64,000 nucleotides of DNA from Plicaturopsis crispa FD-325 SS-3. Lineage: Eukaryota; Basidiomycota; Agaricomycetes; Amylocorticiales; Amylocorticiaceae. The notes under the pieces were generated by a model. That model had not been told where the DNA came from, ran no database searches, and saw only the letters and a program-made list of their open reading frames with translations. This document shows positions 585-18,340 of this stretch, piece after piece; the stretch's first letter is position 1; each line of letters begins with the position of its first letter. The stretch covers positions 17,092 to 81,091 of the forward strand of contig KN832579.1 of assembly GCA_000827205.1 (NCBI GenBank). The letters are read 5' to 3'. The translations under genes and the position numbers were made by a program.

Positions 585-2321
585 TTACAATATAGGTACA
601 AAGACTGGTGTGCTGGCATCGATCACCACCAGCGCGTACTCCATGCCAGTCCAGGTGGACACTGACATGGGCCCGGTGAGATCCGTGACAACTAACTCCA
701 TCTTCTCGTAGGTTGTAGTGCTCGCCTTCGGGAAGGGTAGCCGATGCGACTTCCCGAGGACGCAGCCTTCGCAAACGTGGTCGTATTCGCCGGGCGCCGT
801 GATGGTGAGTCCGTCAACCATCTGCTTCCGCGATAACTCCCTGATCGCGCCCAGGTTAAGGTGACCCAGACGCCGATGCCAGAGGCGCAAGCTCCCACTC
901 GAAGCTGCGCGTAACGCCACATCACCGCCGTTCTCGTGAACGCGGTCGATGTAATACAGCGTGCCCGTGAGTGTTGCGCGGAACAACTCGTCGGCACCCG
1001 TGCTGACCGACAGCCCGCCTCGATAGCTGCGCACTTCCGCCCCCTCCAGCTGCAACGTGCCGAGACTGACAAGATTAGCTGCGAGGTTCGGAACGTGTAG
1101 CGCCCGGTGGAGGACGACTGTCCGGTATCCGTCCTGAAGACGGCTTCGGAACGTCACGCTGCCGCTGCCGCGGACAGGTACGTTGCGCGCATCTCCCACT
1201 GAAATCGTTTCCCCAGTCGTTGACGCCGTGTACGAACGAAAGAACGCCCGATCGCAGAACATATGCGCGGACGCGCCGCAATCCAAGATCACGTCGGCGG
1301 GCTTCGTCTTCCCGTTCGTCGCCATATACACACGTCCGACCTCGTGGGTACCGAGATCGCGGAGACCGCTGACGGTGAGATTCGCGGAATCTCCACCGCC
1401 CTTCTTCTTTTCCTCCTTCTCTTTTCGTTTAGGACACTGGTTCGCCCAATGCCCTTTCTCGTGGCAGTAGCGGCACTCGTCCTTGTCAAGATCGACGCTC
1501 GACGACTTGCCCTTGCCGCCACCGCCGCCGTTGCCCTTCCCTTTCTTCCCCTTGGACTGGGCGAAGAGAGCGGAGTCCCCTCCCGACTTATCGCGGAGAC
1601 GACGATTGGCTTCGGCCTGAAGTTTGGTGCTGACGATTTCGGAGGTAAGATTTTCCAGGTTGAAGAGCTGGATTTTGATGACTTCCCAGGTCGGAGTGCG
1701 CGGGAGCGATAGGACCAGAGCACGGGCGATGTGGATGTCCTTGATCTCCTCACCGGACTGCTCGATGCGATAGCGGAGATCCAGCATGGACGCGATGTGG
1801 TCCGCCATGGGCGTGCCGTCGGAGTATTTGCGGGTATAGAGCTCCTCGAAGAAATAATGGACGTTGATACTCTGCTGATTGGTGACATGGACTTTCTTCC
1901 AGGTATCCCAAATCTCCTTCGACGACTTGCAGTCGCGTACGTGCGGCCACTGCGAGATTTCCGCTGCGCCTTTCATCAATCCTTGCGCCGCCTCGTCCCT
2001 CAACTGCCACTCAAGCCAATCCTTCTTGGCCTGCTTCCAGTCCGACACCGATCCGCCCGCTGGGGGCGATTCGTCGCTCGGCTTATCCGGGCACGGCTCG
2101 CGACCGGTGACGATGAGCCAGAAGAACTTCGACTGCAGTGCCGACTGCATATGCGTCGACCACTCGGCGTAGTTCGAGCCCTTGAGCTTGGGGAATCGGA
2201 AGGCATCGGAGGAGGACGACATTGTGAGTAGCTCGCTGCCGGGGCTCATAACCTCACAGCAGTTTGTGTATGCGCAGGTAGGTCGAGTGAACGAGGAGGC
2301 TGGGAGTTCACGCGCAGACAA
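585..2321 (-). mobile_element. Ty1/copia LTR retrotransposon fossil (gag-protease-start of integrase)
   Basis: A minus-strand coding remnant of a copia-type element. The parts in order are: a gag region; one CCHC zinc knuckle (CRYCHEKGHWANQCPKR); an aspartic protease motif (ILDCGASAH); and a GAG-pre-integrase/integrase zinc region with HRRLGHLN and a later CEGC. The polyprotein stops being recognisable soon after the integrase core begins, and no reverse transcriptase or RNase H is present in the window, so the element is broken and partial. I could not identify LTRs. The well-kept gag/protease reading suggests a fairly young fossil. A Tc1/mariner-like piece lies directly beyond its end. Confidence 0.85.
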
Positions 2322-3179
2322 AGAAAACGGTAAAAGCGTGAACTCCCCTCGAGAAAGGGCGTAGCGTATATGTGAGGCAAAAACGGGGGAACGCGCACAG
2401 TGCGTGTATCAGTAAGTAAAAGACCGCGAAATATAGAAATCAAAAACGTGCAAAGTATTGCGGGTGAACCGCATCAGAGTCCCGACGTGCTATCGCGTCA
2501 GGACAACGATGGTGACGAGGACGCTGCTCACCATAGTAATCGTCGGACGCGGGGAGAGGGCAATGATATGACCCGTATCTTGGTATCTCATTTTCCATCA
2601 TTGATGTTGCACTAACTTTCCTTTTTCTGCCAGCGTGGGTCGACTATGCAGGTTCATACCCCCGTCCAGCGCCAAACCAATACAAGAACGCAATTGACTG
2701 CATGTGACGCTCTCATGGTAGTAAGCCGCGAACTTCTGTGTCTTGTTTGCCTCTGATGTATGCCTACCGCAGTGTTCGCAGCTAATCTCACCGCTGGACC
2801 TAAACGGGGATACGGTAAGTGAGTGTGCTCTCTAAAGGTTACACTACCTAACACAACTCTCTCTGTACTTCCACAGATATACTAACAATTGATGATGAGG
2901 AAGAGATCGACGAGGTACTCCAGCCATTCTTCCCTTTCTCCCCGTGATCTCAGATGCCTTCTCGATAGCACCGTGTGATGCTGTCTGATCCAGCGTCCGA
3001 TGACAAAGAAGACCGAACACAGGAACACAACCCGAAAGACAGGAACAACAAATCGAAACCAATGCCCGACCAAACGATGTCGCAACGTGATGAGCAGCCT
3101 GAGGAGCTCGAATGCGATAATGACCACGGGCTCGACATCAGGAAAATCACTTTGTCTATATAGACAAACTTGAAATAAG
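2322..3179. other. Gene-free stretch upstream of the copia fossil
   Basis: This may contain leader or LTR sequence of the copia element at its left edge, but no repeat partner is visible in the window. The short open frames on both strands have no recognisable motif and overlap one another. Confidence 0.35.
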
Positions 3180-3419: not shown

Positions 3420-4193
3420 ATGGCTCATGCACGGATGTCCGGTTGTTGCAGTGTGGACACGCAGGGTACTGTGGAGTTGTGGGAGGCCGCGCGACTGCCA
3501 CCGTGGATGACGACCCGCTGACGGGATGCGCAGCGCCTACACAAAGGAGTTTGTGCACACAATGCGCGCACTTGTGTGGGCGTTTTCCCACCGAGACCGT
3601 CACCTCTCGGACGTGCTTCCTCCTTGTGCATTTGCACAACGAGCCTGTCCACGCCGTGCTGGCGGGGCGGCGGAGGCGTTGTGCGCTGCGCTTGGATGTG
3701 CTGCGCGGCCAAAGCCAATCAAGCGCAGCTGTGCGCCAACGCCGTCTCGGAGGGCCTGGGCTGCGTGGTTGTGCGCATGCGTCTTTGTGTTGGCAATGCG
3801 CGCGGGCGTTCACATCGACAATGCAGGCGTGTGCATTGCCAACACTGCACGCGAATGGGCGGGACCGTGCTGCATCCACAAGTGGGCCTGCTCCTGATGC
3901 GAGTGGGGGGTGTGCTCCTGATAGGAGCAGGGGCGTGTACGTTGGTATGCACACGGGTGTTTGCGCCGACGATGCACGTACGGGCATGGCCGTCGCCGTT
4001 GCGGTGCGGGCATCAGCAGCAGACGTGTGGCCCTGCACGGGTGGGAACGCTCGCCCGTCGGGGCGTGATTCCGCGCGTCAATAAGGGGAATGTGGGCATG
4101 GGCGCTCACAATAGATGGGGGTGTTGCACCGACGCGTCGCTCTTGCGCGTGCAGGTGCGGGTGTCGTCGAGCACATGTGCGGGTGGGGCACCA
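3420..4193. repeat. GC-rich minisatellite-like block, left of KDZ element
   Basis: High-GC, purine/pyrimidine-biased repeats. The part around 4118-4186 (including gctcttgcgcgtgcagg and gtcgtcgagcacatg) closely matches 18018-18088 in the same orientation. This suggests that one array was split by the transposon between them. Long open frames here are by-products of base composition. Confidence 0.6.
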
Positions 4194-4263
4194 GTCCCTG
4201 TAGTTGTATTGTAATATGATATGGTCGTGGTAACTGACTGAGTTACAATGTATACGGCTGCTC
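4194..4263. repeat. Left terminal inverted repeat of KDZ element
   Basis: Reading inward: GTCCCTGTAG, then TATTGTAAT, then a second TTACAATGTATACGGC. The reverse complement of the right end gives GTCCATGTAG, TATTGTAAT and TTACAATGTATGCGGCC in the same order. The match is imperfect, roughly two thirds to three quarters by eye, with small gaps. Confidence 0.6.
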
Positions 4264-4707
4264 TCCACATGGCCACACATTGAAATGCGACCCTCTGGCT
4301 AAATACCGGCCATTCTCAGCCACTTCGGCCCCTTCAGCCACATTGGCTACCTTGGCAGAATCTTGGTGAATCCGGCACCCAATCTGACCCCTAGGCTTAC
4401 TAATCTACTCATCGACGCAAACCTGCGCTTGCCGTGTACTCAACAATGGTAAACATCCCTCAAATTCGGTCCAAATATATTTTGCCCCCATTTTCCTGTC
4501 AAATTCGAACCACTTTTTGGCCTCACTCAAGATAACCAAGCTCAAAGATCAAGATAGCGCAAATCAAAGATAGCATCTATTAAGAGCGAGTCCGCGCGAG
4601 CGAAAAGACATAAAAAAAAACCCCCCTCTAACTCGAGCCCCCAGTCTTCTGCCTACAAAAAAACAGTCTTTAGCATCAAGCACATCAAGAAATTGCATAC
4701 GAACGAC

Positions 4708-7156
4708 TTACTTTTTATTTCTCCTTGTCTCCACCCCTCCGGCAGTCGACGATCTGAGCATTCTGCCCATCTGACGCCTCGGGGCTGAAAAGGGGAGGGG
4801 GCCCTGCACCTTTCTCTTTGCGGGTACCGTTTTCCCAGGGCCAGCCTTCGATGCGGGTTTCTTTCGTGGAGCGCCACCGGTAGCACTCATCTGCCCTAGC
4901 ACCCATCCGACGTCGCGAACGAGCCGCGCCCAGTAGATGGCCTCCCTCGGATTTTCCTCAAAGCTTGAGTAATCCCCAGTATCTTCCTCGCCATGTACGC
5001 GCCACCAGGCAAGGCCTAACACGACGAGGAGCACCCCGCAGGAGCCGCACGCCTTGAGCACGGCCCAGTCGCACGGGATCGGCTCCTGCGAGTACCGGGC
5101 AAACCCGTCATTGTCGTCGTCGTCCACGATGCTCCTTGCGTCTGGCTGCATGGAGACCCACCACATGCGAAGCTGTGAGCCGAAGCCGGCCGTCACGGTC
5201 CAGTCGATAGGAGGACGCCCGTTCTTCATCCAGTCCTGTATCGCGGATGGACGTTGTAGCGTGGGCAAGCGTATCCCGTCACTCTGTAAAGTACATTAGC
5301 GACGACAATATGATACCATTTACTCGAATACATACCTGGTGCCCGGATTTTGCCTCAAACTCTACGAGCCTCCATAACAGCTGCACCCAATCCAAGCCCC
5401 ATGCCTTTCCTGCCAGATAATCGAAGATTGACCGCGGAAGAGACCACCTCTCCTGGGGAAACGACGCGGTGATGCTCTCAAGCGTTGTCCCTGGGATGGT
5501 GGCGACCGGTAGAGGGCCAGGCCCGTCGTCAATGCCGCCCGTGTTGCCGAAGTTGTCGTCGTCATCGTCCATATCATCGTCCCTCTCGTTCGAGTGGTTT
5601 CCCGCGCCGGCGTTCCAGTTGTTGTCGTTTTCGTCGTTATCGTCGTCGTTTGCGCCGATGTTCAAGTTATTGTCGTCACCGCCTGCGCCGCCTGACGGTG
5701 CTGGGGTTGATGGTGCCCCCGGACGAGCGGTTCTCCTCGGCATTGGGCGAGGTACAGCGGGAGCGACGCCGGGTACCCTTTGTGCGCCTCCAACGGGCGT
5801 AGCGGGTGGCCCTGCCTCCGGTGAGATGATGCGCTCGGGCTGGGAGGTGGATCCCGCCACGCCGGGCCCAGTTGTGCCGGTGGGTGCGGGTGTGCCGGTG
5901 GGTGCGGGTGTGCCGGTGGGTGCAGGCGTGCCGGAAGCCCTCGAACCACCAACCATAGACCTCGTCCCAGGCAGAGCGCGCGCGCGCTGAATCTCTTCAC
6001 CTGCAATGCTTATCAGCGCGTGCCCCCGTTCCTTCGTAGAAACTTTGCCAACACACCGTAGACTGCTCGCCCGAATGCCCCCATGGATGCCTCAACGGCC
6101 GCATATCCGTCGTGGTCGTACTCGAACCATTTCTTTGGGCAAACACCCGGGGTTGTTCCTGCATGTACACTGAGGACGGGTGTCAGTATATGTAGAACAA
6201 TTTACAGACGATAGTACGTACCTTCGAACACCAATTGCTCCACCCAGCTCTGGAATTGGGGTCGTAATGATGATAGCGGCGGCGCAGTGATAGAGATGAG
6301 AGATGTAGTCCGCGGTCGCCTGCAGACGCGCGGGAGAAATATCCAACAGCCTATTTATCCAAATGTCAGCCATCAATAAAAAAAACTCGAACGTAGGTGC
6401 GCACCTTTGATACTCCTCCGGAGTGAGCTCCGTCAGCGCCGCCAACTTTGCCTCCTCCTCCGCCTGCGCCTTTTTCAGTTGGTAGTGCGCCTCTAGATCC
6501 GCCTTCAGCTGCTCCTTGAACTCCTCGGACTCGCGGTTGAGGTACTCGGTTGCAACCTCGGTTCGTATCCTAACTGCGACTGGGCCGGGGCCTTGCTCAC
6601 CGCCCGCGACATAGCTTGCAACCGCCGCTTTCCAGCGCTTTTTGTACTCCTCCTGCAAGCGCGACGCGTAATACTGTTTTTGGTAGAACTGGACCAGGGA
6701 CAGACGGCGCACGTCCGAGTTAATCTCCTCGGAGTCTACAAGAAGTGGCGTGGGGTTTGACTTCGTGGCTAGGCTATAGTTGCGAAACCAATTGCTTAGT
6801 CTCTGTTAGAACGAGTAAGTACAGACTATCTTCATCACCGGAACCATGATTCTCACCTGCCGTGTCTTCTCGTAGATCTCCAGGCGTCGCGCCCGTTCCA
6901 CCTCGTCATAGTGCCGAGCCTCCTCCTCCGCTCTCGCTTCCTCCTCCGTTGTCCGTGGTTCCGCGTCTTCCTCGTATGGGAGGTCGTGGCTCCAGTGCTT
7001 GAACCACTGACATGTCACGCGGTTGTAGAACACCCCCGTGTCTTTCTTGTTCCCGGATAACGCGGTCCATTGGGGGACCAACCCTACGACAAACGCAAGT
7101 TTGGCGCCTGTGAGTTTTGACTTGGCTCCGCGTTTTTTCTTGTCCGTTGTAGACAT
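4708..7156 (-). CDS. KDZ-associated protein of unknown function, 726 aa
   Basis: Six exons (7156-6857, 6802-6405, 6350-6222, 6169-6057, 6000-5336, 5283-4708) sum to 727 codons with matching phases. The N-terminal third is Lys/Glu-rich and likely coiled-coil (REEEARAEEEA-like acidic stretch, then YKKRWKAAV). The middle has a short PTGTPA repeat and a long Asn/Asp-rich acidic low-complexity tract. The C-terminal part has SIFDYLAGKAWGLDWVQLLW, RPSAIQDWMKNGR and VLLVVLGLAWW. That spacing of Trp-rich blocks resembles a large family of uncharacterised basidiomycete proteins often seen in repeats, but I know no function. It is transcribed divergently from the RNase H1-N-like gene, with about 250 bp between start codons, so they may share a promoter. 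The tail after GQMSATGG is basic and could bind nucleic acid. Confidence 0.75.
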
Positions 7157-7410
7157 TACTGAGGGCAGTCATGCACCAGGTCTGGCGCGTCAAGCTAGGA
7201 ATAGGGTAGACAAAAATGTGCACCGATATTCGCGGTACGTCCGACCCTATTTCCTCCGTTCACGTAAAATCTACCTCGGGGCGCTAGCGCTATAGCCGTG
7301 TGAATTCGATCTTGGACCGCCGTCGAGCCATCAAACACCAACGCAACACCCCTTGTCCTCGCCCCTCACTCATCTCCCCCTCAGGCCTCAGACCCAGCTC
7401 AGACCTCACC

Positions 7411-8758
7411 ATGGCTCCTAGCCGCACCGATGGTAGCGATGACCCCCCCGGTGTCGACGATGTCCTCGACCGCATTATGGGATCTCTTAGGCTGGACGAC
7501 AACTCAACGCCGAGTGAGTTCTACCCCACGCCCATCATATCCTTGATACTCATGTGCTCTCATAGTTCTCCCCTCATCCGATTCTTCGCCATCCGCGCCT
7601 GCATTGCCTGAGGCATCATCCACCCCTTCTTTGCGTCCGTCGACGTCGTCGCCGCCAACCAAACCCCCTCCGCCATCGAGCCCTACTCTGCCGCCGCCGC
7701 CGCCGACCAATCCCCCTCCGCCTTCGAGGCCTACTCTGCCGCCGCCGCCTTCTCCACCTACCACACCGCCCCCTGCGAGTCAAGATTCACCTGCCAAGGA
7801 TGTTTACAACGTCTCCTCAGGTCTGGAAGTCGGCCTCATTCCCCACTGGTGAGCTAACTGACTTTTTCACCAAATGGTTCTCACCTATCGCTCATAGGTA
7901 TCGTGCTGGACATGCCACACAAGGCGTCCCGGGTGCGATCTTCGAGAAGGTCCAGATTCCCCTCCCGGAAGGGATGCATAGCCGGCACCGGAACTATACC
8001 ACACCGCCCTCCACCCCGCGATCACCCTCTACTCCGAGACCGCCCCCAGCACAGCCTAGGTTGAGGCCGGCCTATTTCCCGTATGATCCTAGGAAAGTCG
8101 ACACCAACGAGGCAATTGACGGCAAGGGGATTGAACGTCTGCTCGCCGACGTCAACAGTAACAGGCTCGAGATGCCCGTCCCTCGGCCTCTCCTGTCCCC
8201 CCATCGCGGCCCCGTGTACGTAGTTGCTAGGGGCAAAGTGCCGGGCGTCTTCCTCTCATAGTGAGTACTCATCATTTTTCCCGCTCGCACGTAATAATTT
8301 CTCTCATTAGCTCCGACTATGACCTCTCGATCAAGGGAGTTTCGGGCGCCGTCCATCAGAAGTACAACACTCTGCTGCACGGCCTCGGCGCTTGGTCTAT
8401 TGTGTGGAAGGCTGGCAGAGTCGGAGCTCCGCTTCCGCCTGGTCGCAGTGGGACCACGAAAGCAGGAAGCATTCCCCGCCCGTGGTATACGGCAAACGCC
8501 CCCGACCGCCGCGCTAATCAACTTGCACCCCGCCCCGTCGTCGTGTTCAAGGGCACCCAGACCGGGGTATTCGCCGACTGGTACGCTGTGCCCACCATCC
8601 CCATGTTCTCGTATTAATAGGCGAACAGGCTCCAGTGCGCCGACTGTGTTGTAGGTGTTTCGTGCGCCATATACAATCATTTCGATAGCTTGAGCGAGGC
8701 TCGGGAGGCGTATGCGACTGCGTTGGCGGAGAACTACGTTGCCATTCTTCGCCGGTAG
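7411..8758 (+). CDS. Protein with three RNase H1 N-terminal (viroplasmin-like) modules, 382 aa
   Basis: Five exons (7411-7513, 7566-7848, 7898-8260, 8311-8580, 8629-8758) give 382 aa in frame. After a Pro-rich linker (about residues 50-105) come three copies of a small module. Module 1 (about 112-147) has YNVSSGLEVGL..W and GVPGAIFEKV. Module 2 (about 234-280) has VYVVARGKVPGVF, then KGVSGAVHQKYNTL. Module 3 (about 325-372) has VVVFKGTQTGVFADW, then VGVSCAIYNHFDSLSEAREAY. The pattern G-x-x-x-G-[VI]-[FY]..W..V.G[VF]..A....F....EA is that of the RNase H1 hybrid-binding domain, which binds RNA/DNA duplexes. No RNase H catalytic domain follows. In module 2 the Trp is replaced by Tyr. The acceptor of the last intron was chosen because it opens module 3. 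Role in transposition is inferred only. Confidence 0.75.
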
Positions 8759-9991
8759 ATACACTCTAGTTATATTTTTGCTGTGCCATCTATGCTTTGA
8801 ATAAACGTTTTGTGTACCCCCTCCCCCAATGATTTGATTGGAATGCTCGCACAAATGAATATGAAGACATTGAATGCAGGCTTTGAACATGCGTTGCAGT
8901 AGAAAATAGCCCGACCGACGGATAACCGATTGCTCGGTCAGCTGGAAGTGTGCACCGGACTGTTAGACTTGAAGCGTCGCACCTCAACATTTCAATGGTC
9001 CTAAATTTCGAATAAATTACAAAAATATTCGTATGTGTCCTTACAGATTAAAGACCATAAGTGCAGCAAAATTTACACACATATATGTGCATAGAGGGTG
9101 AGTACTGGTGGACGCTAGGTGTTGCAAACTGTTGCAAACTTCCACCAGCACACCGGGATCAATGAAAGGTCCGAATGCGCGCACGGACCAGTAAATCCAA
9201 CCAAACATGACACGCGCGCACGGACCCCATTCAACATATATATAAGCTTGCAAAAATTGAACAAGCATCCCATCCTCGCCCAATTTCTGGCGTTCCGGCT
9301 GTCCCCTGCGTCATTACAATTTCTTCGTCGTCGCTGTAAGTTTTCTTGTCTACGCTCCCGCGCTGATTCTTACCTGTCATGCGTAGATCTGTGTTTGCAC
9401 TGGGCTCAGCGTCTTCAGTGAGTGGTAAGGCAGTTGTGTTTAGGTGAGAGATATCTTCTATTGTTTTGTGCATGTTACTGATTGTCCTTATCTTTGTTAT
9501 AGAGCGCTGAGCCTGCGCCTCCCTGGCGGACGTCTTCGAGACAGAGGGAGGGCGAGTGCCTGTTGGGGGTAGTGTCCGTGCATGTTGAGACTGGTAGGGG
9601 GAGGGTATGGCGTTTTGGCTCACGCGTAGCTAAGTTATGCCCGTTCAGCTTGGTGTTGGGGAGGGGCCCGATTGAAGAAAGCAAGCGGGAACTTATGGCA
9701 TTTCTACTGACCAGTTCCGCACGTACGCCTGTTGAATGCGGTGCGGTGGGCCGGTGGTTCGTCGGGATGGTCTCGTTTTGTGGCCCGGGGAATGTGTATA
9801 TATGTTCGCTGTTGTTAGTAGTACTTCAATATATATGATTTTAACGCATTTCGTGGTTGATGAGTCGATTCAAATGATGCGGTTTGGCAGTGAATTTATC
9901 GGCGACCGCCTTGCGTGAGAAGCGTTGTGCACGTATGTTTGTTTTTGTAGTTCAGTTGGCTGAGTAACATGTCCTGCTCCCTCCCCCCATC
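8759..9991. other. Internal non-coding stretch of the KDZ element
   Basis: About 1.2 kb without a gene I can support. Short open frames on both strands lack recognisable motifs. It contains the 3' flank of the RNase H1-N-like gene and the promoter of the basic protein gene. Confidence 0.4.
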
Positions 9992-10827
9992 ATGTCTCGG
10001 CGTCGTCGACTTACCGCTGAGCAGCGTGCTACGGCGCGAAAGAAAACATACTCGGACAACTATTACAAGTGAGTGTTTTCGTTGCGCCAGTTTATTTCAC
10101 TCATGCATACGTCTTAGGTATCGTGCAGAAAAGTTAGCGAAACAGCGAGTGCGGAGTCGAAAGAACAGGGAGGAAAAGTGAGTCCCTATTGTCTGTTTCA
10201 CAAGTAACTTATTCACTTCTCTCGTCTTTGCAAAACAGGAAGACTAGGGATCAGCTCTTGAAGGAGGATTTGACCGCGCTCCAGCTGTACGACTCGTACG
10301 TCGTCTCTGATCCGCCGTGTGCATGTTCACTCATGTTTTCTAGTGAGGCAACGACGTCCCTGTTTCTCGGTGACATCCCCCATGCATGTACAGAGCAGGC
10401 AAAGCCCCTCTGTCTGCTCTGTACCCCCGATCTGCGTCTTTCGCCCTTCACCCCCGCCTCCGTCACAGAATCCTCCATTAACGACGAAGTTTCCGACGCT
10501 CCTCTTGACGACTCCCCTCTTGGCCAACTCAAGTATTTTGTTGGCGATCTTCGCATCTGGGCTGATTCTTGGGGAACGCCTACGGACATTGCCTCGTCGC
10601 TTGACAGTGAGCATCACTTGGCAGACTCCCGCGGGACCCTCGATACTTGGCTACAAAGGCAACGCGGGGAGGCTGCGAAAGGGCGCCGAATGTTATCTGA
10701 GGTGCACGAGGCTTGCTGTCGAGCTGGCGCATTTGGGGGAGAGATGGCGGAGTTGGTTTCAGGGACTCTCTCGTTGGCTCATCGAGTTATCGCATTATTA
10801 GAAGTACATGTTGGCTATAACATTTAG
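9992..10827 (+). CDS. Small basic KDZ-associated protein, unknown function, about 241 aa
   Basis: Exons 9992-10068, 10118-10177 and 10239-10827 join in phase (a further in-frame 48-nt intron from about 10298 is possible). The N-terminus is strongly basic (MSRRRRLTAEQRATARKK, then YYKYRAEKLAKQRVRSRKN), helical and bZIP-basic-region-like, followed by a Leu-containing helix. The middle is Pro/Ser/Asp-rich. The C-terminus is helical (LDTWLQRQRGEAAKGRRML). I do not recognise a named family. Position between the RNase H1-N-like and TET/JBP genes, on the same strand and inside the inverted ends, makes it element cargo. DNA binding through the basic segment is plausible but unproven. Confidence 0.6.
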
Positions 10828-11480
10828 GACGCGTATACAACGTCCCGCCCCTTGAGTTACCCCACCCGTCGGTGGCACGTGAGCGTGAGTTGCATTGATT
10901 GTTGAACGCGGCGCTTTGCGGCGCCATTTGAATTTGTTCTCTAAACCCCCCTCTGTCCGCCGCTTTTTTTCTCCCCCCCATCATCGCCTACTTTTCTATG
11001 CTCATCCCTCCTTTCAACGCTGGAAGGCGCGCCCTCATTTACTAAGGTGAGCCTCATCCAGTATACACCATTTTCTGTTTTCTCTTCTCCCCTTGCCTGT
11101 CCACCGTACTCCCTTGCAAACCAAAGCTGTGTCAAACACAGGCACTACGGCGGGGCGCAGGGGTCTTTCGGACGCGACATTTTATGGCACGGTGCATATA
11201 CTCCCCCGCAATCTAATGCTGTGTCAAACAAAGGCACTACAGCGGTGCGCGGGGGTCAAGGCGCCTTGTTTTAACCCGTCGACGCGTTTTTACGGCTGCT
11301 TGACGCGTCTTGAACACACACTAATGGTGCCATTTTGTCCTAGAGCCGCAATGCCCGTATCTCCCCCAGAAACCGTGAGTTCTGCCGCGTCTTTGCAGAT
11401 AGCGCGCGCGCTGATCAGCCCTACAGACCGGGCCCAACCGTGCGTCCTCGCCTTACAGCACTACAGTTGTTGCTGTGCGC
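10828..11480. other. Intergenic stretch upstream of the TET/JBP gene
   Basis: It contains a short direct repeat (tgtgtcaaaca.aggcactac around 11131 and 11221). It may hold a 5' exon of the TET/JBP gene: an ATG at about 11351 followed by possible splice sites was considered, but I could not join it convincingly. Confidence 0.35.
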
Positions 11481-13079
11481 ATGGACTTTAACATCGAGGA
11501 CGCCGTGCGAGAAGCAATAGAGAAGGCGGACGCGCGGGACGCCTTGGGTGAAGGGGACTGCGAGGGCGCAGGGGTAGACTCGGAATCTCGGCCCTCGACG
11601 CCGTGGCAGGCTGCGGTCGGCTTTCCCGGCGCGACGCCTCCCCCCACACGCGTGCAGTCTCCTGCCCCCCTCTCCCCTCTTTCTCCTTTAACCCCACTCC
11701 CACCTGGGTTTGGCCAGTCCCCTGCACCTCTCGAGGATATCCCTCCGCTCGATCTACCTCCTACGGCCATGCCTCCCACACAAGAAACATCCACCGTTGA
11801 GGAGCACAAGAGGGCTGGCGCCCGCAACCGCCGCCGTATCAAAAGGCAGAAGGCGAAGGCCACGCAGGATCCCCATACCTACAAAGTTCGCTCGTCGTTG
11901 TCAAAAAACCACACTATCACCCGCGCCTGGAAAGTGGCATTCTCAGCAACCAAGCTTCATATCGCGAAAGGGGCGTTCATTGGGCGTCGTGTGCCGGAGG
12001 GTAGACAGAGCGCCTATACATTGCCGGAGCTGAAGAAGCAGGGGTTTGAGGTGCACGCGTGGAACGGGACGTGCGTGCAATGGTCTATGCATCTGCGTCA
12101 TCCCCAGCTAATCGTGTTGTCATTTTTTTAGGGCCGCAGAGGTCTTTGTTGATGAGGACGGCGCAATCATCCTAGCGCTCCCCGGCCGCCCCGATGAACC
12201 CACTTGGAATGGCGACGCCGACGACGCCGCAGAAACGGTGCGCGGGTTAGGGCATCGCGTCCACGCGGACGATGCTCACCGCAGAGGGGAGTTCAAGGCG
12301 GTGGCTGTGGGCGTGTCATACGGGGGTGGCCAGGCGGTGCGTGGATGCCTCGCGTAGTTTTCACTCTTTCACTGACACGTTCTGCATTAGGCGCCTGGGA
12401 ACTTAACGCAAAGCAAAGCAAATCAGCGCGTATTGCAGGAGCTCATGGGCAGGGCGTCCATCAAGAGGATTGTGGGGTTTCAAAGCAGTACGTTCATGCC
12501 CCTTCATTGTCGCGAAGGCCTACTGACGGGGCGCTAGGCGCCCTGGCCTTCTACGGCCCCAAAATCTATCAGGACATCTCCGAAAATATTGAGAAACTGC
12601 ACAAGCGCCACCCCCACCTCCGCCGCAACTTCACAAACAGCATATACCCCACCCTCACTGTCAACTTCGGCCCGCAAACGGTCTGCTTCGACCACACAGA
12701 TTCGGGCAATGGGCCCGTCTACTGGTGTGCCGTCACCAGCGGCGGGCGCTTCAACCCGAAGCTGGGGGGCCACCTTGTCCTGTTCGACTTGAAGTTGATC
12801 ATCGAATTCCCGCCGGGCTCCACGATCCTCCTTCCTTCGGGCAGCCTGCGCCATGGTAACATCGCGATCCAGCCTGATGAATGGAGGATCTCCCTGACGC
12901 AGTATTGCCCTGGAGGCCTGACACGCTGGGTCCGGTATGGGTTCCAAACCGCAGAGGCACTGGGGAAAGCCGGCGTCGCGAGAATAGTTGGCGACGGCCA
13001 AAAGAGATGGCGCCGCGCTCTCCGGAAGTTCTCGAAAATTGACGAGCTGCAGCAGGATCGGGAGCGTGTATTTTCATAA
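11481..13079 (+). CDS. TET/JBP family Fe(II)/2-oxoglutarate dioxygenase, 477 aa
   Basis: Four exons (11481-12070, 12132-12336, 12391-12487, 12538-13079) give 477 aa. The N-terminal half is Pro-rich, then basic (AGARNRRRIKRQKAKA). The C-terminal half is a double-stranded beta-helix dioxygenase. It has an LTVNFGPQTVCFDHTDSGN segment with the HxD iron ligands (H and D in DHTDS), a PPGSTILLPSGSLRHGN segment with the distal iron-binding His, and an Arg-containing ISLTQYCPGGLTRW segment expected to hold 2-oxoglutarate. All key residues are present. Members of this family oxidise 5-methylcytosine (TET) or thymine (JBP) in DNA; fungal members act on 5-methylcytosine. It sits next to the KDZ transposase, the arrangement known from basidiomycetes, so it may relieve methylation silencing of the element. 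That role is inference. Confidence 0.88.
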
Positions 13080-13285
13080 TTCGTCTTTGTTGTCTTGCTT
13101 TGCCATGTACCATCCGTCTTGTATATTGCCCTCTTTCTTGCTGAAATCTAGTGCATTCTCGGATGCTTTTCGCGGGCGCCGCAAAAAGACGTCGCAGTCT
13201 ATCCCCGGGTGAAACGCGAGTTTGTTGATTCCAGTCGCGTAGCTGAGCACCGAGGCTCGGCAAAAACTTGTACAGCGTCCACACA

Positions 13286-16200
13286 ATGGGCAGGAAAAGT
13301 CGAAAAAAAAACCCCCCTCCTGCATTTCACATCCACGAGCCCGCTCGCCCTGCGGTGTCTCAGATTGTGTCGGTCTCGTCCTCCTCTCGGCGCATACATA
13401 TTATCACGAATCAAATTGCTCTCCCACCGCCTCAGCCTGTGGACCCGGTCGTCACACCCCCCTCAATGCCATGGTTTGATTTTACGTCCGACAATTACGA
13501 CGACCCTCGTACAGAGGGCATTGGAGCGGAGGATATCGCAGGCGTCGAGGTCTGCACAAAGACCCATGCAAAGCGATACCAAAACTCCGTAAGTTTTTTC
13601 AAGTTCGCAGACATACGTGGGGCCTGACGTGAATTTTTCTCAGGACGAACCCCTGCGCACGTACATGCCCTTCCGCGATGAATACGCGTTAGAGCTGTTG
13701 CGCCTCGAAGGGCGGGGGGATTTTGCAGAGGATGCAGGGTGCGCCGACTGTAAAGCCGCCTCACCCTGTTTTCGCTGCCGGGATTGCGGGCGCGGGGTCC
13801 TCTTGTGCAAACCCTGCATCATAGAGCGCCACCGCTGCCTTCCGCTGCATATAGTGGAGGTGTGTCAATTACGCCCTTTCTTAATGCTACCTTTCATGCT
13901 GATTTTCCCTAGGGATGGGTGGGCGGTTTCTTTCGCCGTGTGAGCCTTCGCGACTTAGGGTTGCGTGTCCAATTCGGCCACAGCGGGGGCGAAGTGTGCA
14001 TGCACAAGCAGGCTGGCCACCAAAACTTTGTGGTCATCCACGTGAATGGCATCCATCGCGTTGCGGTGGACTTTTGCGGGTGCAAGGTCGGCTTTGACCG
14101 GTTTCGCCAGGTTCTTCGTATGAGCTGGTGGCCGGCAACACCTTTGGAGCCGCAGAGCTGTGCTACCATGGAGCTCCTGCGGCTTTTTCATATCATGAAC
14201 TTGCAAGGACGAATCAACGCATTCGACTTTTACAAAGGTCTTGAAGCCATGTCTGACCCGAGCAAGCTGTATCCTTTACCGGTGCGTACCTTTTTTGTTC
14301 TTCTCGACTGTCGGGGTGTCTGAGGAATGCCGATTTTAGGATCGTCGGCAGGCTTTAATGATTATGATTAGGGAGTGGCGCAATATTGTGATGCTCAAAC
14401 GTGCAGGGCGGTTTCATCAGGGAGGGGCGGCGGGTACCGGCGTGGGCGAGCTAGCGCTCAAGTGTAGAGTGTGCCCCGAGCCCGGGGTTAATCTGCCGGT
14501 TGATTGGGAAAGTATGCCACAGAAGGACCGGTACGTTTGTTGCACTATATGTCCATCCATTTGGCTAACGTTGATTCAGCTACCTCATCCGGACCACCTT
14601 GCACGAGGACGCCAACTTCCGACTTTCTAACAAAGCGCGTGCTAACGGTCACCGCGACCCCGTTCTAGGCCCGGGTTGGGCGTTCCTTGTGGAGAGAACA
14701 ATGTATACCGACCACCTCAAGCGCTACGTTCACCAGGATGAGGTGATTTTTTCGCTTGTCAGTGGTTGCCACTACTGAAGCATATGATCCTCGTAGATCG
14801 GTACCTGTTCTGGATTTGCCGCGATGATCCTCGCCAACCTCAAGCGAAAAAAGGGTGTAGTATCGACGGGGGTGGGTGGTGTAATGTGCGACGACGAGTT
14901 CTGGCGTGCACAAGGGGTGGGGGATCTGCAAAAGGGCGAAAGGTGCACAATCCGTCTCCGTTACCAGGCGTTCGCTAACGTTCCCATTAAGGTTTGCAAA
15001 TATGGACTATTTGTTTTTCTCGGCCGCGAAAGGCGTCAAGACCCCGCTCCTCGTTACCTACGACATTGCATGCCAGTGGGGGCGTAATCTATGGACGCGA
15101 GCACCTAGCATGCCCTCACACCTCACACCATCCTTCGACCGGTCTCTAGTCACCCTGAAGGTCCCCAAGATGCATTTGCACGGTCACGAAGACAAGTGCC
15201 AAGCCCCGTTCTCGCTCAACTACACCCCAGGTGCGGGTCTCAAGGACGGGGAGGGTATCGAGCGCGGGTGGGCATCGATTAACGGCGCATCGAAGAGCAC
15301 CAAGGAAATGGGGCCTGGTGCCAGAAGCGACACCCTCGACGACTTCTTTCAATACGATAATTACAAGAAGTTGACCGGCCTTGGTGAGTTTTCTCATAAC
15401 CGTTCGAGCGTAACTTACACGCGCTTTGGTGGTAGGGGATCGTCTCCTTCGACGCCTTCTAGAGGCCATACCGGAGGCAATCTCGCGCCTTGAAGAATTC
15501 GAGGCATTCGACAAGATGCTTCGCGAGCATCGACCGCGGGAGGTGGAGGATTGGGTGCGGATGGTGGAGGAATGGGAGGAGGACCACGATCTGCCATGCC
15601 CGTATACGCTGGCACGTTCTAGTAAGTCTTCTTGAGTTCTTATACCCTGATGCGCGCTAATGTGTGGAGCCAGCGCTCACCATCGCGGACGTTCGCCTAC
15701 AACTGGCAAAGGAAGAGCAAGCAAAAGCGGAGAAAGGGGAGGTTGGGCTACACGAGACAACGCCAAGTGCGTTCGTTATGCTGGGTCTGGAGATAGAGGC
15801 GGCGCAGTGCGTGGCTTTTTCGTACATCTTTGCTTGTTCTGACATACCCTAGGCTGGCGCTACGCCGGGACGTGAAATCCAAAATCCGATTGACGTCGCT
15901 ACAAGACACCTCGATATACGAACGCCGCACCGCCCTACATAAGAAGATCCGGAGGTTCCTCGTACTGCAACAGGTGTACATGCCGCGCTTGCCCGCCGTC
16001 CTGCCCGCAACCGTTCCGACGCCTCAAGACGGGGGTGGTGCAATTATGGACGCCGAGAACGTTGACATTCACATGCCCTCCTCCCTTGACGACGCCCCTC
16101 GTACGGCTGCATGCGCCGCTGGCCTAGCAGATATCGAAGAACGTCTCAGGTTTGCGGAGAGCATCGAAACTCTGGAAGAGCTCCGCCGCCACCTTCGAAC

Positions 16201-17101
16201 CCGCACCTACATGAATCGGTTCAAGATCAAGAACGTCACGGGGGTGAGGGCGAATACCCGTGCTAGGGTATCTCAAGGCTCTGTCGATGAGCAGACGTTC
16301 CAGTGCAAGATTCGGTACCAGCAGTCGCGTGCAGCATATCTTCGACTACATGGCCCAGGACCCTGGGAGAAGGAGCTGCAAGTACTCAAAGATGAAGACG
16401 TGCGGGGCCTCAACGAGCGGGCGCTCACGCAGCAGGAGATAGACGACAGGGACCGGATTCGGAGGCTTGGGGGGCTCGACGAAGAGGACGGGGCCGACCT
16501 CGAAGCCGAAAATCTACGGGGTGTGGTCATGGAGACACCTGCGCAGGCTGGCGAGTCGCGGCGCACCGTCTCTTGGCTATGGATGTCGGGTGCTTCGTGC
16601 GAGGACGAAACGGATCCCCGCATGCATGAAGGTAAGCCATGATGCAAATGAAATTCGTCGATCTAACGGTTTGTTGCAGCGCTGCGAGTCGAATGGGCCA
16701 AGACGAGAGCGCGATCACATCGATGGACGGAGGAGGTCCACATCGTCCTCGAGAAGATGCGTCGTGTGATAGCCTACGGGACGTGGCAGGCAGAATGGTG
16801 GCGACACCTAGCACGCGACCTGGACGACACCACCCGCCCACTCGAAATCCTGCGCGGTACTGCACTGTCAGGGAAATACGGCGAATTCGGCGACGCAAGC
16901 ATGCGGGAAGGGTTTGTCGCGTTTGCCCTCGAGCACGCAGCAATCGAGGACGCCAGGAATCGGTTCTTCGAGAACAAATGGGCGGGCGCTATCTATCGTG
17001 CGCGTACCTCGGTGCTAGGTGAGGATCTTCCGATGCCGGCGATGGAGGTGAGAAGGCAGCCGATTGTGCTGGAAATCGAGGATACCGATGATTTCGACTG
17101 A
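13286..17101 (+). CDS. KDZ transposase with CxC2-type cysteine cluster, 1,099 aa, intact
   Basis: Eleven exons (13286-13588, 13644-13859, 13913-14281, 14340-14530, 14580-14742, 14797-14942, 14992-15383, 15436-15621, 15674-15806, 15853-16631, 16680-17101) sum to exactly 1,100 codons. A Cys cluster near residues 130-165 (CADCKAASPCFRCRDCG, then CKPC) matches the CxC2 domain linked to KDZ transposases. The RNase-H-fold core shows EDANFRLSNK, GVGDLQKGER, YDIACQW, PKMHLHGHEDKCQ and DGEGIERGWASIN with TKEMGPGAR. The Asp of EDANF, the Asp of YDIACQW and the Glu of GIERGW are the likely catalytic triad. The C-terminal third is helical and charged. With an uninterrupted frame and recognisable element ends, it could be active. 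Last gene on the plus strand of the element. Confidence 0.92.
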
Positions 17102-17390
17102 TTTTGGTTTCGGTGCATGCCGCGGATCTTGCTGATGCCTCGGTGTTTACTTTTTTGTGTCATCCATCTATTGCGGGCGTTTCGTACGATAAAAGTTCAA
17201 ATTGTATTGTAGTGTAAAAATCCTTGGACCCTGACCCTCTGGGGTTCAACACTGGTGGCTGAGGAAACCTTTTGTTATGTAAATTGCCTTGAGGTTTGAG
17301 GGTCACGTGAATGAGCGGGTGGCTTCAGCCACTCAGCGGAAATCGCCTGTTTGCCGGCCATGTACAATTCAATGCGAAATAAGCAGGACT

Positions 17391-17460
17391 GGCAGTGGCC
17401 GCATACATTGTAATGCATAGGTGGCCATGGCCGCATACATTACAATAGTCCTACATGGAC
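17391..17460. repeat. Right terminal inverted repeat of KDZ element
   Basis: Contains ggccgcatacattgtaatg and a second ggccgcatacattacaat about 30 bp further on. Its reverse complement matches the left end from the outer GTCC..TGTAG inward. The gene-free 290 bp before it is the transposase 3' flank. Confidence 0.6.
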
Positions 17461-18340
17461 GCCTGGGTGGGGGCGTCGTCGAGGACGCGCGCGGGCGCGG
17501 ATGTCATCGAGGACGTGCGCGGGCGTCGTTGAGGACCTGCACGGGCACCCATACAGAGTGTGGGCGTGCAGGCGTGGGCCTCGTCGAGAACGTGCGTGGG
17601 CGTGGGCCTCGTCGAGGACGCGCGCGGGCATGGGTGTCATCGAGGACGCACGCGGGCGTAGGCGTCATTGAGGACGTGCGCGGGCGTAGGCGTCACGCGG
17701 ACGTGCGCGGGTGTGGGCGTTGTCGAGGACGACGTGCGCGGGCGCGGCCGTCGCTGTTGCGCGTGCAGGCGTGGCGTTGTCGAGGACGTGTGCAGGCGCG
17801 GGCGTCGTTTGAGAATGTGCGCGGGTGGGGGCGTCGTCGAGGACGCGCGCGGGCGCGGGTGTCATCGAGGACGTGCGCAGGTGCAGCCGTTGCAGTTGCG
17901 CGTGCAGGCGCGGTGTCGTCGAGGACGTGCGCGGCGTGGGCCTCGTCGAGGACGTGCGTGGGCGTGGGCCTCGTCGAGGATGTGCACGGGCGCCCGACCA
18001 GAGTGTGGGCATGCAGGTGTTGCACTGACGCGGTGCGGCCGTCGCTCTTGCGCGTGCAGGCGCGGCGTCGTCGAGCACATGCGCGGGCATGGGTGTCGTT
18101 TAAGACGTGCGCGGGTGTGGGTGTCGTCGAGGACGTGCACAGGTGCCCGTCCAGAGTGTGGGCGTGCAGGCGCCTTGGCGTCGTCGAAAACTCGCACAGG
18201 TGTGGGAGTTGTCGAGGATGTGCGCGGGCGTGGGCGTCGTCGAGGACGTGCGCGGGTGTGGGCGTCGTCGAGGATGTGCACGGGCACCCATCCACAATGC
18301 ACGGGTGGGTGTGCTCACGCATGTGTAGCGCGAGCTGGGT
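17461..18340. repeat. GC-rich minisatellite, about 28-bp unit
   Basis: Tandem variants of gtgggcgtcgtcgaggacgt plus gcgcggg, roughly 28 bp per unit, repeated across about 0.9 kb. An intercalated longer unit carries cagagtgtgggcgtgcagg. It resembles 3420-4193 in the same orientation. Base composition leaves all frames nearly stop-free. Confidence 0.8.

Follow-up and report, generated by a model that had tools for sequence, protein, structure and literature searches.

Does the run of genes near the left end of a 64,000-nucleotide window of the Plicaturopsis crispa genome form one mobile element, and what does that element carry? A preliminary description of this DNA had proposed an apparently intact KDZ transposon at 4194-17460, holding a TET/JBP dioxygenase and three further cargo genes between inverted ends. 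The window (C26:17092-81091) comes from a 33.2-Mb assembly of 49 contigs, numbered here C1, C2 and so on. Match counts from whole-assembly searches are lower bounds, and all tests of other copies and of separate flanking-gene loci were run within this one genome. Our analysis makes it highly probable that the locus is a DNA transposon of the KDZ class (Kyakuja-like), complete and probably autonomous, with a recurrent gene set and an enzyme predicted to act against silencing.

Alignment of the ends of related copies sets the termini at CACCAGTCC.. and ..GGACGCCTG, window positions 4189 and 17465. The element and its borders are as follows:

4189..17465, plus strand: whole KDZ element (C26:21280-34556), 13,277 bp, with CA..TG termini (5'-CACCAG...CGCCTG-3')
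4182..4188, unstranded: left copy of the target-site duplication, GGTGGGG, identical to 17466-17472
17466..17472, unstranded: right copy of the target-site duplication, GGTGGGG, a perfect 7 bp
4189..4334, plus strand: left end region, ~145 nt, 75-78% identical at C18, C1, C6 and C3 (second C3 copy, 72%)
17371..17465, plus strand: right end region, 95-97 nt, 83-87% identical at C4 and C6
17471..18286, unstranded: minisatellite of 28-bp period that the element entered, with a left remnant at ~4144-4188

The inverted ends are short and imperfect, matching at 11 of 15 terminal bases and at 72% over 65 nt. The inverted repeat first noted, 4194-4215 with 17439-17460 (22 nt, 82%), is the tenth listed among 94 inverted pairs spaced by 3-19 kb, and on its own it is proof of nothing. 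What makes the ends convincing is that their terminal 22-mers recur across the genome. With up to three mismatches, the left pattern has 25 matches against 2 for its reversed control and the right pattern 6 against 0; in the window itself the matches fall at 4189 and 17465. Some of the three-mismatch left matches may be due to chance, and two of the 25, at C7:1427 and C36:27715, are right-type ends. Inverted ends do flank the genes, as first described, and are found genome-wide, with the true borders lying five bases further out on each side. Subterminal repeats, with 1 and 2 matches at the ends and 1 in the interior, are too few to use.

Pairing of ends was tried on ten copies, of which seven paired and three did not. 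All seven paired elements are bounded by a perfect 7-bp target-site duplication and have CA..TG termini, the two marks of Kyakuja:

C26 (window): GGTGGGG
C6: GGAAGCA (both ends in the same orientation, 4,267 bp end to end)
C5: CCTCGGC
C36: CGAGGCA
C7: AGGGATT
C9: AAGATAG
C10: GTTGCGC

The three that did not pair are the C24 locus, which has no recognisable ends, and two left ends on C3, neither of which has a mate within the 17.4 kb examined. Outside these ten, the copies at C1:2123409, C18:619345 and C4:2009504, whose interiors are long runs of N, were left unpaired. Joining the flanks of the window element after removal of one duplication copy gives a sequence that matches an uninterrupted minisatellite stretch at 88% over 95 bp, spanning the join; this is, as far as the match goes, an internal picture of the empty site.

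Five genes lie between the ends:

4708..7156, minus strand: 726-aa protein, 6 exons (7156-6857, 6802-6405, 6350-6222, 6169-6057, 6000-5336, 5283-4708)
7411..8758, plus strand: 382-aa RNase H1-N protein, 5 exons (7411-7513, 7566-7848, 7898-8260, 8311-8580, 8629-8758)
9992..10827, plus strand: 225-aa basic protein, 4 exons (9992-10068, 10118-10177, 10239-10295, 10344-10827)
11481..13079, plus strand: 477-aa TET/JBP-superfamily dioxygenase, 4 exons (11481-12070, 12132-12336, 12391-12487, 12538-13079)
13286..17101, plus strand: 1,099-aa CxC2-KDZ transposase, exons 1-6 (13286-13588, 13644-13859, 13913-14281, 14340-14530, 14580-14742, 14797-14942) and exons 7-11 (14992-15383, 15436-15621, 15674-15806, 15853-16631, 16680-17101)

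The splice models, based on open frames and homologues, are all stop-free with GT..AG introns of 46-61 nt, and each of the five genes closes at the size first given for it, including the 11-exon transposase and the 4-exon dioxygenase. The transposase has a full-length KDZ domain (PF18758, 1.6e-55, covering 4-217 of 217) at residues 366-586, preceded by a CxC2 zinc-cluster domain at 185-289 (9.7e-39). Two RNase H1 N-terminal (Cauli_VI) stretches are present in the 382-aa protein (Pfam, 5.1e-22). A Pfam search found no known domain in the 726-aa protein and no match that would place the basic protein in a known DNA-binding family. A 2014 study by Iyer is said to describe extra genes in some KDZ elements, including one with a divergent HMG domain; the domain encoded by exon 2 of the 726-aa gene has no support as a divergent HMG domain in Pfam or the PDB.

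The same genes recur together elsewhere in the genome. The C5 element (C5:1146067-1161058, 14,992 bp as assembled) contains all five in the order and orientation of the window element, with the 726-aa homologue on the minus strand followed by the RNase H1-N, basic, dioxygenase and transposase genes on the plus strand. Two further end-bounded elements, at C9 (12,251 bp) and C10 (12,491 bp), share this layout and comprise a 726-aa homologue, a protein with two Cauli_VI stretches, a dioxygenase and a transposase. The C24 locus, at which no recognisable ends were found, has a 726-aa homologue, a Cauli_VI protein and a dioxygenase, together with a single 73-aa transposase match. With the four-gene set at C26, C5, C9 and C10, and with a transposase fragment at C24, much of the supposed cargo is core content: in this lineage the 726-aa and RNase H1-N genes recur as part of the core rather than as loose cargo. 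The basic protein is present at two of these five loci (C26 and C5), with no significant homologue at C9, C10 or C24; its single homologue in the genome lies in the C5 element, and it is, on this distribution, an extra of the C26/C5 sub-lineage.

In C9:1213771-1226021 and C10:1253498-1265988 the CAGG-type end is the one next to the 726-aa gene, and the transposase adjoins the CACCAG-type end. C26 and C5 show the opposite arrangement, so that the two end types have swapped places relative to the genes. Three short elements of ~4 kb, at C36:23782-27736, C7:1427-5439 and C6:75039-79305, share this kind of end and are likewise bounded by perfect 7-bp duplications. Searches for the five proteins found none of them in the C6 copy and none in the examined stretches of the C36 and C7 elements, so all three look non-autonomous.

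Whole-genome counts give a similar picture. Grouping the 34 dioxygenase exon matches by hand gives 16 loci, and at 10 of these a KDZ match lies no more than 10 kb away. The 726-aa protein has 21 matches at eight loci, and at seven of these a dioxygenase or KDZ match is adjacent; homologues thus occur at seven loci besides its own, those on C7 and C43 being weak. At the sensitivity of the genome searches made with them, the RNase H1-N and basic proteins have homologues only in the C5 element. Rather than ending well inside the borders, the short C6 copy ends at the same ones, and where the distal genes have homologues, these sit within or next to other elements of this kind (seven of eight loci for the 726-aa family). 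Together with the paired ends, the 7-bp duplications, the empty-site-like join and the C5 sister with the same five genes, these results bear out the initial proposal of one mobile KDZ unit, and by its anatomy the element is a complete cut-and-paste unit.

Could it nonetheless be an old copy, complete but immobile, either dead, with open genes as recent arrivals not yet decayed, or retained because the genes are kept for the host? We consider this possible, if doubtful. The element is single copy, its four aligned dioxygenase relatives are 42-66% identical (the nearest 66%, or 79% over the last exon), and some related copies look decayed or have no recognisable mate end (C3, C24), all of which would suit such a history. 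Set against it are five open frames, two intact ends and a perfect duplication, and pN/pS, the ratio of nonsynonymous to synonymous differences per site, which is below 0.52 in every gene compared with C5: 0.26 for the transposase, 0.33 for the dioxygenase, 0.48 for the RNase H1-N protein, 0.49 for the 726-aa protein and 0.51 for the basic protein. These values suggest that selection acting on the element lineage maintains the companion genes; synonymous sites are saturated in this comparison, so that pN/pS reflects the lineage, not the present-day copy. That saturation is one of several points weighing against a complete, autonomous transposon. In addition, no near-identical copy that would point to recent movement was found in the genome, and an intact full gene set is demonstrated for the window element only. 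At C10 an in-frame stop interrupts the last exon of the dioxygenase gene, and the C5 transposase is broken by a gap of 501 N that has the same 986-bp stretch on either side, most simply an assembly fault. At C5 and C9 there are several end-like matches, and the duplication helped to pick between them.

We turn to the dioxygenase, first described as TET/JBP. Its residues H350, D352, H403 and R414 are conserved. CcTet of Coprinopsis cinerea (PDB 7vpn, 8jkk) is likewise a TET/JBP-superfamily 2-oxoglutarate/Fe(II) oxygenase with HxD, H and R (PMC11040006). In CcTet, whose histidine is His326 (PMC12730594), the positions five and eleven residues further on (H+5, H+11) are Gly331 and Asp337, with roles described in the accessible text of PMC11040006, and hTet2 has Asn1387 at the position equivalent to Gly331 (same source). 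In contrast, all six aligned window-type rows have Asn at H+5 and Cys at H+11. All six also have HxD rather than the HxE of the PE type, whose mark was not found.

The best profile match of the dioxygenase core is to phage Tet_JBP proteins in or close to phrog_24024, among them those of Stenotrophomonas phage DLP_6, Caulobacter phage Cr30 and phage C48C1. The phrog_24024 profile matches all six window-type members (best 1.2e-7), and its members in DLP_6 and C48C1 are themselves PF12851 Tet_JBP at 8e-19 and 3e-17. A seven-phage Tet_JBP profile aligns with the window type at HHalign 97.2% (E 3e-11) and with the classic TET type of the same genome at 88.7% (E 2.5e-6), against ~0.1% for two control profiles. 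The aligned families share TxN, HxD, GG, HGN and RxS, with the metal-binding H, D, H and the 2-oxoglutarate Arg in register. At H+5 the phage proteins have Asp in five of seven aligned sequences and Ser and Asn in one each, where the window type has Asn; the fungal proteins differ in their long basic, proline-rich N-terminal part.

Other results sit less easily with this assignment. The window dioxygenase has no Pfam match above cut-off and no meaningful PDB match, as single sequence or profile, and is itself weak against phrog_24024 (0.0035). When two window-type proteins were searched as single sequences against phages, no match was significant (best E 0.2). It is conceivable that the protein is a 2-oxoglutarate oxygenase of another sort, such as a prolyl-hydroxylase-like one, with protein or RNA as its substrate: two of five homologues touch 2OG-FeII_Oxy_3 (best 0.0057) and only one of the five aligned homologues reaches Tet_JBP (0.028), a further homologue on C19 reaches Tet_JBP only at 0.011, and direct profile comparison with the classic TETs of the same genome is not significant (0.8% and 7.8%), a comparison on which we base no claim. 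The strong phage Tet_JBP profile match, with the metal-binding and 2-oxoglutarate residues in register, makes this unlikely. An ordinary CcTet-like AG type was considered and ruled out, there being no detected sequence match to CcTet, a sub-cut-off Tet_JBP score, and Asn and Cys instead of Gly/Ser and Asp. Judged by these profiles and by the AG and PE marks, the enzyme is a member of the TET/JBP superfamily on a branch separate from the AG type; the original assignment thus stands for the superfamily, and not for the AG type described for Kyakuja. On the phage side, PHROG 24024 is listed as of unknown function while its two tested members match Tet_JBP strongly, and kin of Tet_JBP (KU682439.2, KF301602.1, MG450654.1) are annotated as 'SNF2 DNA repair protein'.

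Classic TETs are present in the same genome. A PF12851 genome search found five other loci above cut-off, and all five proteins pass PF12851 and have Gly/Ser at H+5 and Asp at H+11; a profile built from them finds CcTet at 1.9e-29. A KDZ match lies no more than 10 kb from three of the five (C28:22529, C31:73867 and C1:3185061). Around the classic TETs on C28 (20.5 kb, 1,835 N) and C31 (13.7 kb, 523 N) no sequence of the 726-aa, RNase H1-N or window-type dioxygenase genes was found, so on these two of five loci the four-gene set seems specific to elements of the window's kind. These two stretches have a few end-like matches (up to two mismatches), none of them pairing, and their KDZ pieces are 24-42% identical to the window transposase.

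It is very improbable that a KDZ element at one side adjoins unrelated genes lying by chance between end-like sequences, as genes on both strands, distal genes without a known transposition role and an inverted repeat that alone is no better than chance might suggest: at C5 the five genes keep their order and orientation between duplicated-site ends, after which such a composite is hardly tenable, the four-gene set recurs at C9 and C10, and the C6 copy has both of the same ends with its own duplication.

Among described systems, the complete KDZ transposon proposed here is close to the TET+ Kyakuja of Kojima 2025, which have CA..TG termini, 7-bp duplications and AG-type TETs with the Asp kept; like them, it has a KDZ transposase and an internal TET/JBP-superfamily gene (PMC12730594, accessible text). 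It differs in the lack of the Gly/Ser and Asp that mark the AG type and in its short inverted ends, with 11 of the first 15 bases matching, where two Laccaria families reportedly have none (same text). The RNase H1-N and 726-aa genes go unmentioned in the text consulted of PMC12730594, and searches of literature listings and of passages of the papers cited here, Iyer 2014, Chavez 2014 and the Kojima figures and supplement not among them, turned up nothing that names either gene in KDZ-TET elements. Cryptococcus KDZ1-KDZ3, elements of about 9-11 kb whose movement has been demonstrated, also have a KDZ transposase with a CxC domain, but this is CxC1, with 139-241 bp inverted repeats and 4-8 bp duplications, and the accessible text mentions no TET gene (PMC12810828).

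These features suggest how the element may work. By analogy with its families, the KDZ transposase would cut at the CA..TG ends, and its insertions would be staggered by 7 bp. RNase H1-N domains bind RNA:DNA hybrids or double-stranded RNA; the protein bearing one may therefore act on R-loops or small-RNA targeting, perhaps countering silencing, whether transcriptional or RNA-based. Accessory roles are suggested for the 726-aa and basic proteins. The dioxygenase is predicted to oxidise 5-methylcytosine (5mC) in the element's DNA or close to it and so to loosen host silencing, much as Kojima 2025 proposes for TET+ transposons (PMC12730594, accessible text). Because its pocket has Asn at the hTet2 Asn1387 position, we expect activity on 5mC rather than N6-methyladenine (6mA). 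More tentatively, and with not quite even confidence, we suggest that KDZ transposons took up TET/JBP enzymes at least twice in the host lineage. The second branch, nearer to phage Tet_JBP, would have an hTet2-like Asn pocket and be 5mC-selective, and would have been coupled with the RNase H1-N protein and the large companion as a four-gene anti-silencing set older than the split between C26/C5 and C9/C10.

Other KDZ sequences lie nearby and elsewhere. A second KDZ-type end, CACCAGTCTTTGTACCTATATT, is found at window 589-610 (minus strand), and its element would extend leftward, outside the window. A 607-aa open frame at 585-2408 (minus strand) runs into this end; by its motifs it looks like a Copia gag-protease. 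A second KDZ group, with the domain in one open frame and near-equal scores of 204-209 bits (C6:1845136, C36:35028, C36:14492, C38:42888, C17:662751, C37:13253, C22:47524, C42:14567 and C21:135107), is possibly a recently spread family.

TET genes of fungal transposons are thought to undo silencing, and the other contents of such elements are little described in accessible texts. KDZ elements carrying TET were already known; the one described here appears to be of the same kind, with a different TET/JBP branch and a companion gene set. One genome provides four long duplication-bounded elements with a common gene set, from which the minimal content of such an element can be defined. CcTet acts on both 5mC and 6mA. 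The coexistence of a CcTet-like branch and of a second TET branch whose pocket is like that of hTet2 within a single genome leads to a prediction of their substrates.

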